Shown here: piece after piece, positions 43,351-48,344 of the stretch
How the letters are laid out: the number at the start of each line of letters is the position of its first letter
How positions within the stretch are numbered: the first letter of the stretch is position 1
Origin: Pseudomonas sp. PSE14
GTDB taxonomy: Bacteria > Pseudomonadota > Gammaproteobacteria > Pseudomonadales > Pseudomonadaceae
DNA length: 64,000 nt
Direction: 5' to 3'
Assembly: GCF_029203285.1 (NCBI RefSeq)
Contig: NZ_CP115669.1
Coordinates: forward strand, 2,728,001 to 2,792,000
The notes under the pieces: model-generated
Seen by the model: the letters and a program-made list of their open reading frames with translations, nothing else
What the model was told of the DNA's origin: nothing
Databases searched by the model: none
Position numbers and translations under genes: made by a program

Positions 43351-43659
43351 GGAGTTTCCAAGGCAGGAAGTTGGGCCACCGAAGCGCGGCAGCGAGTCGG
43401 ACTATCTTGCCGGTCGTCCGTGATCCTTGGGAAGGTGGAGGATCGACGTTTCTCTGCCTGCCTGCGTCGCTTTACTCACGCTTGCAAAGCCATTGCACTG
43501 GCGAGTCGTCCAGTTCTGCCGCACCTTTCTGCGAACCGTCCGCCTTTGTCGGGGGATTTCTTCTTCGCCGAGCTGCCGGGTGCTTCTCGAATGGCTGTTC
43601 ATGGCCCAGGTGTTTTGCTATCAATCGCCATACCTTCACACTGCTGCCGAAGCTCCCGC

Positions 43660-44691
43660 ATGGATCAGATTCTGTCGTTCCTGTCCGAGACCGTCCCTAA
43701 AGCCAAAACCGTAGAGCAACTCACACGTCCATTGCTGGCCCTGCTCGAAAGGGTGACGGGAATGGAGTCCACCTACCTGACGACCATCGACATCGAGCAC
43801 GGCGTGCAGCGGGTGGAGTTCGCGCGCAACATTGGCAAGATGGAAATTCCCGAGGGGCTGGTGGTGCCCTGGGAAGACACCTTGTGCAAGCGCGCGCTGG
43901 AGGAGAAGCGTCTGTACTCCGACGACGTTGCGCAGTGCTGGGGGGATTCGGATGCCGCCAAGGCGCTGGGCATCAAAACCTATGTGAGCGCCCCGATCAC
44001 CGCCCAGGATGGCCGGGTGCTCGGGACGGTTTGCGCTGCCAGTTCATCGAAGATCGCCCGTACGCCAGAGGTGGAGCCGATCCTGAGGCTGCTTTCCGGA
44101 CTGTTGGGGTATTCCCTGGAGCGGGAGCTGCTGGTCGAACGGCTGCAAACCGCGAACGCGGAACTGGCGAAGCTGGCGCTGACGGACTCCCTGACGGGGT
44201 TGCCTAACCGGCGCGCCATCCTGGGCGAACTCGAGCGTACGTTCGCGCTGGCCAGGCGCGAGCGGATGTACGTGCTGGTCGGCGTCGTGGATCTGGATGG
44301 GTTCAAGTACATCAACGATACCCATGGTCATCACGCCGGAGATGCCTTTTTGCAGGGCGTTTCCGGCCGGCTGCAGGACAGCCTGCGTTCCAGCGACATT
44401 CTGGGGCGTACCGGTGGCGATGAGTTCATCGTGATCGCGCTCGGCTCGTTCGACCCGCGGCAGGCCCCCGAGAACGACATGCTGCATGCAGCCCATCTGC
44501 TGCAGGATCGATTGGCGAACGCGACCATCGGGCGTTACCAGTTGGGGGTTGGACACGGGGACATCCAGTACAGCGGCGCCAGCGTCGGCGTCGTTGCGGT
44601 GCAACCCGATAACGTGGACGTGGATGAGGCCATCAAGCTGGCCGATCGGGAAATGTACAAGGTGAAGCAGCAGCGAAAGGTGGCCGGGTAG
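43660..44691 (+). CDS. GAF-GGDEF diguanylate cyclase
   Basis: Predicted cyclic-di-GMP synthase of 343 aa. A GAF sensor domain (about 20-155, with GKMEIPEGLVVPWEDTLC and YVSAPI) is joined by a short helix to a GGDEF domain. The active site is canonical GGDEF (252-256), and an allosteric I-site RSSD (243-246) lies five residues before it, so product inhibition is expected. No membrane segment, thus cytosolic. I use the ATG at 43660, although its ribosome binding site is weak; the 309 bp before it hold no recognisable gene. The GAF pattern resembles light- or redox-insensitive small-ligand sensors; ligand unknown. Confidence 0.87.
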   Translation: MDQILSFLSETVPKAKTVEQLTRPLLALLERVTGMESTYLTTIDIEHGVQRVEFARNIGKMEIPEGLVVPWEDTLCKRALEEKRLYSDDVAQCWGDSDAAKALGIKTYVSAPITAQDGRVLGTVCAASSSKIARTPEVEPILRLLSGLLGYSLERELLVERLQTANAELAKLALTDSLTGLPNRRAILGELERTFALARRERMYVLVGVVDLDGFKYINDTHGHHAGDAFLQGVSGRLQDSLRSSDILGRTGGDEFIVIALGSFDPRQAPENDMLHAAHLLQDRLANATIGRYQLGVGHGDIQYSGASVGVVAVQPDNVDVDEAIKLADREMYKVKQQRKVAG

Positions 44692-44827
44692 TAACGGTCT
44701 GCCTGGAGGTCATGCAGGCCGGCCGGGCCTGAGAAGGGACAGGCTCCCAGCGAATCACCCACCCTGGCAATGGCGCAAATGGCGAAAAGAGGGGAGCCAG
44801 GCGGCAAGCTCCTGGCTCCCGCGCCTG

Positions 44828-45658
44828 TCAGCCGCGCACGAAGGCGAGCAGATCGGCGTTGATGGTGTCGGCGTGGGTGGTTGGCATTCCGTGGGGGAAG
44901 CCGGAGTAGGTTTTCAGCGTGCTGTTCCTGAGCAGCTTCGCCGACAGCAGGCCCGAGTTCTCATAGGGCACTATCTGGTCGTCATCGCCGTGCATCACCA
45001 GGACCGGGATGGTCACGCTCTTCAGGTCTTCGGTGAAGTCCGTCTGCGAGAAGGCGACGATGCCGTCGTAGTGTGCCTTGGCGCCGCCCATCATGCCTTG
45101 CCGCCACCAGTTCCGGATGATGCCTTCCGAAGGTTTGGCACCCGGGCGGTTGTAGCCATAGAAGGGGCCGGCGGGGATGTCGTGATAGAACTGTGCGCGG
45201 TTGGCCGCGAGCTGGGCCTGGAGGTCATCGAAGACCTCCTTGGGCAGGCCGCCGGGATTGCTCGCGGTCTTCACCATCAGCGGCGGAACGGCGCTGATGA
45301 TGGCGGCCTTGGGCACAGGGTCCTCGCGGTGACGGGCGATGTAGTGGATGACCTCGCCGCCGCCGGTGGAGTGGCCGACATGAATGGCCCCCTGGGTGCC
45401 GAGATGCTGGACCACCGCGGCCACGTCATCGGCGTAGTGATCCATGTCGTGTCCGTCCCACACCTGGCTCGACCGACCATGTCCGCGACGATCGTGTGCG
45501 ACCACGCGGAAGCCATTGGCCAGGAAGAACAGCATCTGGGCATCCCAGTCGTCGGCACTGAGTGGCCAACCGTGGTGGAAGTGGATCACCTGGGCATCGC
45601 GCGGGCCCCAGTCCTTGTAGAAGATTTCTACGCCGTCCTTTGTCGTGACGTATCCCAT
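44828..45658 (-). CDS. Alpha/beta hydrolase, non-haem chloroperoxidase type
   Basis: Cofactor-free haloperoxidase/esterase-like enzyme of 276 aa. The nucleophile Ser97 is in GHSTGGGE, the Asp in MHGDDDQIVP and the His in GFPHGMP; the oxyanion motif HHGWPLS is typical of the family. I start at 45658 because AGGAG precedes it. A MerR-type promoter lies 295 bp upstream (45953-45983). In related bacteria such genes belong to oxidant or aldehyde stress regulons; the physiological substrate is unknown. Confidence 0.87.
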   Translation of the reverse strand: MGYVTTKDGVEIFYKDWGPRDAQVIHFHHGWPLSADDWDAQMLFFLANGFRVVAHDRRGHGRSSQVWDGHDMDHYADDVAAVVQHLGTQGAIHVGHSTGGGEVIHYIARHREDPVPKAAIISAVPPLMVKTASNPGGLPKEVFDDLQAQLAANRAQFYHDIPAGPFYGYNRPGAKPSEGIIRNWWRQGMMGGAKAHYDGIVAFSQTDFTEDLKSVTIPVLVMHGDDDQIVPYENSGLLSAKLLRNSTLKTYSGFPHGMPTTHADTINADLLAFVRG

Positions 45659-45952
45659 GTTTGCATCTCCTGTGGTGGGTGGAGTTCGGCACGCAGCAAT
45701 CAACAGTGCTGGTCATTGCCGCTCGTAACGGGAGTTCTTTTCCGCTCTCGCCGGACAGGTGGCGGTTCGATCGAGGCGACGGGCCGCAGTGGCATTGACG
45801 CCTGCGCTGCGAACGGCCTTGTCCAGGCTCCCCCGGGAACGGCGCGCCTTCCGGGGCGTTGCCGGTCGGCGCTTGTCGGGGCCTCTTCCATGAGCGGCGG
45901 TGGCGTTGTCGGTCGTACTGCGCAAGGCGCCCCAACGCTGAGCCGTTAGATC

Positions 45953-45983
45953 ACTCTAGGATTAAAGTAAGCTTTAAGGTCAA
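45953..45983 (-). promoter_or_regulatory. MerR-type promoter with 19-bp spacer (hydrolase side)
   Basis: On the minus strand, TTGACC (45978-45983) and TAGAGT (45953-45958) are 19 bp apart, the long spacer that MerR-family activators correct. The spacer region carries CTTAAAG-CTTA-CTTTAAT, a 7-4-7 inverted repeat. The same layout recurs at 47141-47171 and 47319-47349. 45659-45952 holds no clear gene. Confidence 0.75.
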
Positions 45984-46027
45984 TGCTTTTTGTGGGGCGG
46001 CATGAGGATTGGGGGGGCTTGCCCTGG

Positions 46028-46050
46028 AAAACCAGGCCCGATGGGCCTGG
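46028..46050 (-). terminator. Rho-independent terminator of the ADC-fold gene
   Basis: Minus-strand stem CCAGGCCC/GGGCCTGG with a 3-base loop, followed by TTTT, 18 bp after the stop at 46068. Confidence 0.75.
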
Positions 46051-46067
46051 CTTCATCCGCCGGACGT

Positions 46068-47075
46068 TCAGTCCTTGCCGATCAACGTGGCAAGCGGCCT
46101 GGGGGCATACAGCGCGCTCTGGAATTCCGGAACGTACTCGTACTTCATCATTTTCCCCAGTTTCAGCGGCTTGATGTACTCCGAGAGACTTCCGTCGCCG
46201 AGGATCAGTGTCGCCGCGTCGCCATCGGTGCTGCTTGCATGGCTGAGTTGTCGCGAAACCGCGTATCCATAGGTCAACTCGCCGTTCCTGTCGGTATTGG
46301 TAAAGCTGTTGGTTACCAGCTCGTCGTCCTTCGAGAGACCGGAGAGTTTGTCGGCCTTGAAGACGACATCCACTTTGCCGGTCTGGCTATCGATGATGTC
46401 GTAGGAGACCGTGTGGTCGTCTTCCCTGACGTTGATACCGGTAAGCCACTTGGGCAGGTTGTAGCCCACGACCCCGCGGACCCTTGCCAGTTCGGTGTTC
46501 ACCGGGAGCTTGAGTACATACCCCCAGTAATCCTTGGACATCGACTGGCCGATCAGCGTGATGGGACCAAGATTGGCATTGCCGGGCTTGCTGGTGACCA
46601 CGGAGAGTGCGACTTCGTTGTAGCTGTCATTGTCGCAGTAGTGATAGGAGTATGCAGTGAAGGCGACCAGGCCGCGCCCCGGCCATACCTGGAGTGGCTG
46701 CACTTTCTCCAGGACCCTGGCCGGCATCAGTTCCTTCAGCTTCTCGATGTCCGCCGTAAAGACAGCCGTCACCCTGCTGTTCCGGTAGTAGAAGTTAGGC
46801 GAATAGGACTCGAAGCCGATATCCACCCTGGTCTTGGTCAGCCCCTTGAACCAGCTCAGGTCGACATCCGGAGCTTCGGCGGCAATTACCGAGAGCGGTG
46901 GGTTTGAACGGTATCGGTCATACAGGCCGCCCTTGACCACAGGCACTTCATGGCCGGCGATAGTGATGATCGTACTTTCCGCCTGGCTGTTCGTTGCCGG
47001 GACCTCAGCCCATGCGTGGGCCGCCAGGGCATTCACGAAAAGTCCGGCTATTGCGACAACACTTCCGAGTTTCAT
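46068..47075 (-). CDS. Exported acetoacetate-decarboxylase-fold protein
   Basis: Protein of 335 aa with a signal peptide (cleaved near AHAWA, residue 23), hence periplasmic, followed by an acetoacetate decarboxylase (ADC)-like domain (about 45-325). ADC-family patterns are visible: YYRNSRVTAVFTADIEKLKELMP-type N-terminal strand pair, VAFTAYSYHYCDNDSYNEVALSV, and a C-terminal GKMMKYEYVPE. Cytosolic ADC enzymes decarboxylate via a Schiff-base Lys; whether that Lys is kept here needs alignment. An exported member is unusual. Its promoter has the MerR-type architecture shared with both neighbours, and a terminator follows at once. Confidence 0.8.
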   Translation of the reverse strand: MKLGSVVAIAGLFVNALAAHAWAEVPATNSQAESTIITIAGHEVPVVKGGLYDRYRSNPPLSVIAAEAPDVDLSWFKGLTKTRVDIGFESYSPNFYYRNSRVTAVFTADIEKLKELMPARVLEKVQPLQVWPGRGLVAFTAYSYHYCDNDSYNEVALSVVTSKPGNANLGPITLIGQSMSKDYWGYVLKLPVNTELARVRGVVGYNLPKWLTGINVREDDHTVSYDIIDSQTGKVDVVFKADKLSGLSKDDELVTNSFTNTDRNGELTYGYAVSRQLSHASSTDGDAATLILGDGSLSEYIKPLKLGKMMKYEYVPEFQSALYAPRPLATLIGKD

Positions 47076-47140
47076 GGTTCAAGTATCTCCAGAGTCATGC
47101 GTGGCACTTGCGGCACGCTATTGAGCGGCTTGCCGGTGGC

Positions 47141-47171
47141 ACCCTAACCTTGAACTGAACTTTAAGGTCAA
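47141..47171 (-). promoter_or_regulatory. MerR-type promoter with 19-bp spacer (ADC-fold gene)
   Basis: Minus-strand TTGACC (47166-47171) and TAGGGT (47141-47146), 19 bp apart, enclosing CTTAAAG-TTCA-GTTCAAG (7-4-7). The -10 box lies 66 bp before the ATG at 47075. Confidence 0.78.
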
Positions 47172-47318
47172 GGTCGCCAGGACATGGCTTTTCGTTTCTG
47201 GAGAATCGGGCGGCGAGGCGCGTGGATCAGGGAATTCGAGGCGATTTCCGGGTTTTTGAGTCATGCATGGGGCGGCCTCGATAAATCCCGTGAATGTCCG
47301 CAATAAGGAAACGCAGCC

Positions 47319-47349
47319 TTGACCTTGAAGTTGAGTTCAACCTTAGAGT
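47319..47349 (+). promoter_or_regulatory. MerR-type promoter with 19-bp spacer (DJ-1/PfpI gene)
   Basis: Plus-strand TTGACC (47319-47324) and TAGAGT (47344-47349), 19 bp apart, enclosing CTTGAAG-TTGA-GTTCAAC (7-4-7). It drives the DJ-1/PfpI gene starting at 47469 and is divergent from the promoter at 47141-47171. Confidence 0.78.
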
Positions 47350-47468
47350 GATTGTGGCTGGCGAGGAGCGGCGCGGTCCGCAGGCAGGGATGCGCGGATC
47401 GCATCGAACCCGCCGACTCCGTGGACGATTCAAGGCACAAGCTGGGGAAACAGAGGGCACTCGAGAAC

Positions 47469-48155
47469 ATGAGCAAGCGCATTCTTCACGTCGTTACCAA
47501 CGTCGCCCACTACGCTGACCCGTCCAAGCCGACCGGATTGTGGTTGGGCGAGCTGACCCATGCGTACCACGTCTTTGCCGCAAACGGGTATGAACAGCAC
47601 CTGGTGAGCCCCAAGGGGGGCGTATCGCCCCTGGAGCCGCGCTCGCTGAAATGGCCGCTTCTCGACCGCACGGCCAAGGCGTGGTTGAACGACGAGGCGA
47701 GCATGCGGCGCCTGGCGACGACCGCGCGACCGGAGGAGATCGACTCCGCTGACTTCGATGCCATCTATTTCACCGGCGGCCATGCCGTGATGTGGGACTT
47801 TCCCGACGACTCCGGATTGCAGAGGCTCACTCGCGAAATCCATGAGCGAGGAGGCGTCGTCTCTTCCGTTTGCCATGGTTACTGCGGGTTGCTGAATACC
47901 AGGTTGTCGGACGGTAGCCTGCTGGTCGCCGGTCGGCGGCTCACCGGTTATTCCTGGAACGAGGAAGTGCTGGCCGGTGTTGCCAGGCAAGTGCCCTACA
48001 ACTCCGAAGCGGAGATGAAGCGCCGGGGCGCCCGCTACGAGAAGGCTTTGCTGCCATTCGTCTCCAATGTCATCGTCGACGGTCGACTGGTTACGGGGCA
48101 GAACCCTCAGTCCGCGAAGGCGACGGCGGAGCAGGTGGTGGCGCTACTGAAATGA
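47469..48155 (+). CDS. DJ-1/PfpI-family protein (Hsp31-like)
   Basis: Cytosolic protein of 228 aa. The nucleophile elbow is SVCHGYC (Cys135, His136), and the acidic partner is Glu28 in GLWLGELTHAY, as in the Hsp31/YajL/type-1 glutamine amidotransferase clan. Members act as glyoxalase III, deglycase or peptidase-like repair proteins against reactive carbonyls. GAGGG precedes the ATG at 47469. In Bacillus a DJ-1/PfpI gene (yraA) belongs to the aldehyde-responsive AdhR (MerR/NmlR) regulon; the MerR-type promoter here makes the parallel attractive. A GC-rich hairpin follows the stop. Confidence 0.87.
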   Translation: MSKRILHVVTNVAHYADPSKPTGLWLGELTHAYHVFAANGYEQHLVSPKGGVSPLEPRSLKWPLLDRTAKAWLNDEASMRRLATTARPEEIDSADFDAIYFTGGHAVMWDFPDDSGLQRLTREIHERGGVVSSVCHGYCGLLNTRLSDGSLLVAGRRLTGYSWNEEVLAGVARQVPYNSEAEMKRRGARYEKALLPFVSNVIVDGRLVTGQNPQSAKATAEQVVALLK

Positions 48156-48344
48156 CCGCGCAGCGCGCCGTCGCGGTATCTGCCGGCGCGCTGCAGTCGG
48201 GTCCTCGGGGCCTGGGTTGCCGGGAGGCAAGGGCGGCAGGCCCGGCGATGGGTTTTCCTGCTGTCCCCTTTAACCCCCTTCGCTGTCCGCCAATGCCCTC
48301 CGCCACGATTGGCGCCTGACTTAACGTTGCTCCCTGCCCATGAC

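Follow-up and report, generated by a model that had tools for sequence, protein, structure and literature searches.

Three MerR-type promoters in a Pseudomonas gene cluster lacking its own MerR gene, and their probable control by a distant MerR paralogue

The window analysed here is a stretch of 64,000 nucleotides of the Pseudomonas sp. PSE14 genome (contig positions 2,728,001 to 2,792,000), and it contains three matched promoters whose regulator seems to be encoded elsewhere in the genome. From sequence comparison, we infer with a probability of roughly 0.75 that OyeR (a provisional label coined here), the only remaining member in this genome of one MerR subfamily, controls the three promoters in trans, since the operators have been kept, the stretch containing the recognition helix is identical to that of the related cluster regulator, and the sole subfamily MerR gene is distant in 14 of 20 genomes that carry one of the target genes. 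On this evidence, the system is a new MerR subfamily regulon working on ordinary MerR machinery, with an instructive loss of the local regulator, and is mostly explained. About one third of the family genomes sampled (71/198) carry a MerR of this subfamily, for which a defined operator and target set can thereby be predicted. Moreover, the window represents a natural deletion experiment, with the regulator gone, the operators kept and a paralogue at hand, and shows why a regulon can appear regulator-less in one genome.

Operators and genes of the window cluster

The pattern TTGACC-N19-TAGRGT occurs exactly three times in the window, the mean over 100 shuffles being 0.00, and one type of 31-bp site is common to all three promoters. 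In the whole genome (5,977,163 bases), a looser pattern, TTGACYTTRAAGNNNANTTNAANNNTANNNT with at most two mismatches, recovers the three window sites and one more, four in total, and the reversed pattern gives no match in the same scan. Thus, the three matched MerR-type promoters described in the initial annotation are real. Operator 1 (45953..45983, minus strand; TTGACC-19-TAGAGT) lies in the hydrolase promoter and is identical at 31 of 31 positions to its counterpart in the relative G020, where it is placed between the hydrolase gene and a MerR gene. Operator 2 (47141..47171, minus strand; TTGACC-19-TAGGGT) belongs to the promoter of the ADC-like gene and shares 29 of 31 positions with G020, and operator 3 (47319..47349, plus strand; TTGACC-19-TAGAGT), in the promoter of the DJ-1/PfpI gene, shares 31 of 31. 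In each site, a spacer in the 19-20 bp range carries a dyad between the -35 and -10 elements, as is typical of MerR-type promoters. The 7-4-7 dyads reported earlier are indeed present in the spacer but imperfect, with 6/7, 5/7, and 5/7 complementary positions when judged by eye; the dyad core TTRAA-N6-TTYAA, also scored by eye, pairs at 5/5, 4/5, and 5/5. Both 19-bp spacing and a dyad are found in 141 distinct sites across genomes, the spacing having been fixed by the search pattern.

Operator 1 precedes a gene for a haloperoxidase-type alpha/beta hydrolase of 276 aa from its ATG (44828..45658, minus strand; Pfam Abhydrolase_1), which matches the esterase 1zoi (E 9.7e-164) and the non-heme chloroperoxidase 4dgq in the PDB and is 95% identical to its G020 counterpart. 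The ADC-like protein (46068..47075, minus strand; 335 aa) seems, on inspection by eye, to begin with a signal peptide. It matches Pfam ADC weakly (20.6 bits against a cut-off of 29.8; E=3.5e-4), the same Pfam family is hit by 13 of 21 of its homologues (best 9.7e-7), and its predicted structure is a moderate model (pLDDT 73.9, pTM 0.77); a PDB sequence search with it gave no match at E<=1, and it is 88% identical to the G020 protein. From motif resemblance, Lys209 and Glu154 may correspond to residues of the ADC active site. The DJ-1/PfpI protein (47469..48155, plus strand; 228 aa from its ATG; Pfam DJ-1_PfpI), with 91% identity to its G020 counterpart, has PDB matches that include ThiJ/PfpI, glyoxalase III, and Hsp31 chains. 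The start codons of the hydrolase (ATG at 45658) and DJ-1 (ATG at 47469) genes were corrected from the sequence, all three genes are still open frames, and their identities are as first described, namely, a haloperoxidase-like hydrolase, an exported ADC-type protein, and a DJ-1/PfpI protein. This gene set is widespread and probably detoxifying.

With the hydrolase ATG at 45658, the hydrolase leader is about 294 nt long. This leader (window 45659-45952) is 80% conserved with G020, and that of P. citronellolis measures about 82 nt; a search for structured RNA between 43000 and 49000 of the window gave no Rfam match at gathering-score level.

Loss of the cluster MerR gene and the remaining regulator

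None of the 11 MerR-domain matches of the genome (10 over the cut-off) falls within 2728001-2792000, in agreement with the earlier remark that no MerR gene was in sight, because the cluster has lost its own MerR gene by deletion (about 455 bp gone, first 11 bp left), as shown by comparison with G020. There, the hydrolase, ADC-like, and DJ-1 genes have the same order and orientation as in the window, and the cluster contains two further genes. One, for a MerR protein of 154 aa (L076:8795-9259), separates the hydrolase promoter from the ADC-like gene; the other, which follows DJ-1 and has a site of its own, encodes an OYE (Old Yellow Enzyme). In the BLAST alignment, window positions 44789-46012 correspond to L076:7584-8805 and 46022-47368 to L076:9261-10583. 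The first 11 bp of the deleted gene (ATGAGGATTGG; 46002..46012, plus strand), with the old leader still before them, thus coincide with the end of the first aligned piece (46012 = L076:8805), and at the deletion junction (46013..46021) 9 bp stand against 455 bp in G020 (L076:8806-9260, the rest of the MerR gene). A GC-rich hairpin after the ADC-like gene, seen by eye at 46032..46050, is kept across the deletion, so that the MerR gene has left behind its leader, its start codon, and the hairpin that followed it. A MerR gene beside the ADC-like gene is also found in G009, G011, G034, G064, G189, G193, and P. carbonaria, which makes its presence likely ancestral and the state of the window a loss. 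In Pseudomonas sp. BN102 and BN417 (G189 and G193), both MerR types are present with the same operator type, the state to be expected before the loss of the cluster MerR.

Several variants were observed in relatives. In P. citronellolis (G009), a MerR remnant (residues 79-145; L070:11656-11868) lies beside one ADC-like gene, about 30 kb from an intact MerR in L069. In P. delhiensis (L083:9829-10065), the hydrolase is reduced to fragments and the -10 element of its promoter is changed to TGCAGT. In G023 and G003, the genes that flank the region corresponding to window 43454-48260, which contains a GGDEF gene and the cluster, are only 51 and about 69 bp apart; with these two genomes taken as the empty site, the window cluster is an insertion relative to them. 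The genome of the window (G000) and G020 are both inside the same 16-genome rpoB clade, and the cluster may have arrived either by transfer or have been lost repeatedly in relatives.

The initial annotation called for a genome scan for further sites and for a MerR gene carrying the same site, and the scan yielded one further site, beside the OyeR gene. This fourth site (G000:C1:1695233-1695263, plus strand), about 1.08 Mb from the window sites, lies between the divergent genes of a 139-aa MerR protein, OyeR, and an OYE, at distances of 19 bp to the start codon of the former and 30 bp to the latter gene. OyeR (L004; G000:C1:1694795-1695214, minus strand) contains the MerR HTH domain (PF00376, 51.4 bits, cut-off 28.2), and its residues 11-26, which include the predicted recognition helix, are identical to those of the G020 cluster MerR; the SRIRFYE helix was found in none of the other MerR proteins of the genome. 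The single cysteine of OyeR, C121, is C-terminal. Among 80 named members of the subfamily, 79 have a cysteine in the C-terminal stretch (the exception is from Solimonas), 35 have one cysteine in all, and 42 have a cysteine somewhere in residues 45-60. In the tree, a single clade (support 97/87) unites the cluster MerRs, and OyeR falls among the MerRs linked to OYE genes in the P. nitroreducens group, where several deeper forks are poorly supported.

At the OyeR-OYE locus (G000:C1:1694795-1696529), the OYE is closest to that of G015 (96%) and the MerR to that of G022 (94%), mixed affinities that suggest recombination.

Co-occurrence of the operator with the MerR subfamily and its targets

Across 198 genomes of the family, site and subfamily MerR occur together in 68, MerR alone in three (G042, G181, and G185), the site alone in two (G129 and G215), and neither in 125. 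Thus, the site is present in 68 of 71 genomes that have the subfamily and in 2 of the 127 that do not (Fisher 1e-46, with no correction for kinship), and in G042 and G181 sites with one mismatch lie before OYE genes. Within the genus (25 genomes), exactly one subfamily MerR is present in 23, all of them with sites, and the other two have neither; 51 sites were found there and none with the reversed-pattern control. In a survey of 114 relatives, with thresholds of at most one mismatch for sites and E<=1e-18 for the subfamily, 32 genomes have sites, 32 have the MerR, and 30 have both; G070 and G086 have the site only, and G042 and G068 the MerR only. In G070, a more distant MerR (E 8e-18) adjoins the site, and the site of G086 looks like a chance match. 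Exactly one subfamily MerR per genome was counted in 32/32 of these relatives, 23/23 genus genomes, and 69/71 family genomes, at most 20 candidates having been scored per genome in the family sample.

The same arrangement as in PSE14, with the site at the divergent promoter of the regulator gene, is found at 72 of 80 named MerR loci, where a site lies no more than 400 bp upstream of the MerR start, in almost all cases near -50 and directed away from the MerR gene. Several of the eight loci without a site show a degenerate copy by eye, and the 1.55 Mb covered by the named loci contain 103 sites and none with the reversed control. These 80 MerRs were retrieved with a pattern that includes SRIRFYE, and, therefore, their common helix is not independent evidence. 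The earlier proposal that the promoters form one regulon with its regulator elsewhere is upheld by the fourth site beside a MerR gene and by the co-occurrence of site and regulator across genomes.

The genes downstream of the 141 sites fall into groups headed by OYE (83), ADC-like (23), hydrolase (10), and DJ-1 (6) genes, followed by two small dehydrogenase-like groups, named by eye (4 and 3), and 12 others, several of which are wrong-frame calls; these shares are biased by the retrieval of loci by MerR, ADC, and site. All 23 ADC-like matches in relatives have a site 63-174 bp upstream and all 23 of the closest OYE genes also have one, the range for both together being 27-174 bp in the same direction; none of 10 second, more distant OYE paralogues in the genus has a site upstream. 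OYE is the constant partner of the subfamily MerR, and, as judged from these neighbourhoods, the usual targets of the predicted activator are an OYE ene-reductase, the ADC-like protein, the haloperoxidase-type hydrolase, and the DJ-1/PfpI protein. Their recurrence as joint targets points to a common chemical stress. Moreover, control in trans seems to be common in genomes with the ADC-like gene, 14 of 20 of which have their sole subfamily MerR on a different contig or at a distance of over 0.7 Mb.

A branch of ADC-like proteins of about 300 aa, with no signal peptide and about 33% identity (L066, L068, L196, and others), also has the site upstream. In Paraburkholderia sediminicola (L196:10001-11905), a single cluster combines four sites with two MerR genes of the subfamily.

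Control in trans, alternatives, and related systems

The three window promoters are operators of one subfamily of MerR-family activators, and OyeR would bind to them in trans; once activated, OyeR would twist the over-long 19-bp spacer and the window cluster would be co-induced with the OYE gene beside OyeR. More speculatively, the trigger might be an electrophile or reactive carbonyl sensed via C121. Evolutionarily, we lean slightly towards a detoxification cluster, transferred or inserted, from which the MerR and OYE genes disappeared and which then came under a resident MerR that reads the same operator but belongs to another subclade, so that two formerly separate loci became one regulon with a single regulator copy; the subfamily would then be an unnamed, electrophile-sensing branch of MerR proteins. 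Some observations count against control by OyeR, since eight of the 80 named MerRs have no site within 400 bp, and G129 and G215 have a site and no MerR.

The operators could be orphans, with the local MerR lost recently, OyeR reading the sites too poorly, and the genes left at an uninduced basal level, promoters with a 19-bp spacer being weak without their activator. We consider this reading, the main rival, unlikely, although it deserves some weight. Operators 2 and 3 have G at site position 17, typical of the cluster type, unlike the C of the operator of OyeR itself; G17 sites also occur in G037 and G061, whose sole subfamily MerR, about 60% identical to OyeR, is OYE-linked. The deletion may also be recent, one genome of the species having been compared, and in that case the intactness of the operators says nothing about whether they are still used. 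However, 91 of 93 operator bases are identical to G020 vs. 235/295, 53/65, and 99/158 in the flanks (15/91 in the flank beside DJ-1, through an insertion), and the three genes have remained open. The ADC-like gene, moreover, keeps its site with no MerR nearby in the 14 genomes mentioned above, and the loss of the hydrolase in P. delhiensis came with the change in its operator.

It is very improbable that the sites belong to an NmlR/AdhR-type aldehyde regulon, as the initial annotation proposed, even though their form resembles the operator given there and AdhR, according to PMC4776306, induces decarboxylase-like and 'cysteine proteinase' genes with methylglyoxal or formaldehyde. With the NmlR model NF041849 (cut-off 175 bits), OyeR scores 42.1 and the G020 MerR 48.2 bits, and the cysteine at 52/54, described in the same source (PMC4776306) as absolutely conserved in the NmlR clade, is replaced by Ser in OyeR and Gly in the G020 MerR, neither of which has a cysteine at 52-54; their constant partner is OYE and not alcohol dehydrogenase. 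There is just as little reason to assign the sites to another MerR of the genome (CueR-, CadR-, or SoxR-like; L008 and others), ten MerR-domain matches over the cut-off notwithstanding, since SRIRFYE is in none of the others, the operator of the SoxR-like gene is of another kind, and the site tracks only the subfamily of OyeR. An assembly error, with the MerR gene present in the living strain, is equally improbable in a single-contig, 100% complete genome with a clean junction, terminator and leader kept, and MerR decay also in P. citronellolis.

OyeR falls below the equivalog cut-offs of CueR, NmlR, SoxR, and other families. No description of a MerR-operator-OYE/ADC/DJ-1 regulon was found in the literature outside subscription journals and preprints. 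OYEs reduce activated alkenes, and an electrophile or carbonyl is a plausible inducer considering the OYE, the DJ-1 resemblance, and the C-terminal cysteine; an aldehyde could be the inducer even without NmlR/AdhR membership.

NmlR/AdhR regulators (Haemophilus, Neisseria, Bacillus) are likewise small MerR proteins with suspected cysteine sensing and reactive-carbonyl enzymes as targets; OyeR, however, lacks Cys52/54 and has the C-terminal Cys121, and OYE takes the place of alcohol dehydrogenase (adhC/adhA) as divergent partner, so that membership was rejected. The metal sensors CueR/ZntR/CadR are similar in length and show the best sequence similarity to OyeR (CueR as best family match, 74.1 bits; PDB 1q05, E 1e-16), whereas OyeR has a single cysteine, no two-cysteine metal loop, and no adjoining metal genes, and falls short of the CueR cut-off (TIGR02044) of 147.4 bits. 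SoxR, too, is a MerR protein and activates a redox-type regulon from promoters with 19-bp spacers, but OyeR reaches 44.2 bits with the SoxR model (TIGR01950, cut-off 116.9), its one cysteine rules out an iron-sulphur cluster of the SoxR kind, and the SoxR-like gene of the genome is separate (L003), with the operator TTGACCTCAACTTAAGTTGAGGT. Membership of the metal sensors and of SoxR was therefore rejected as well.

In P. aeruginosa, PA2718 presumably adjoins cpo (PA2717), and from this synteny we take it to be probably an orthologue of the cluster-type MerR. Strain PA7 of P. aeruginosa (G012 = NC_009656) shows such an arrangement, in which the hydrolase, OYE, and DJ-1 genes surround a cluster-type MerR and each has a site. 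PA2718 does not appear in the main text of the 2021 HT-SELEX atlas (PMC8041468), and another study describes it by 2480 ChIP-seq peaks and by co-binding (PMC13086498). Such a number is far above the strict-site prediction and, if PA2718 is comparable, would count against a narrow regulon. The window cluster resembles that of PA7 in its hydrolase and DJ-1 genes with their sites, and differs from it in having lost the MerR and the OYE gene.
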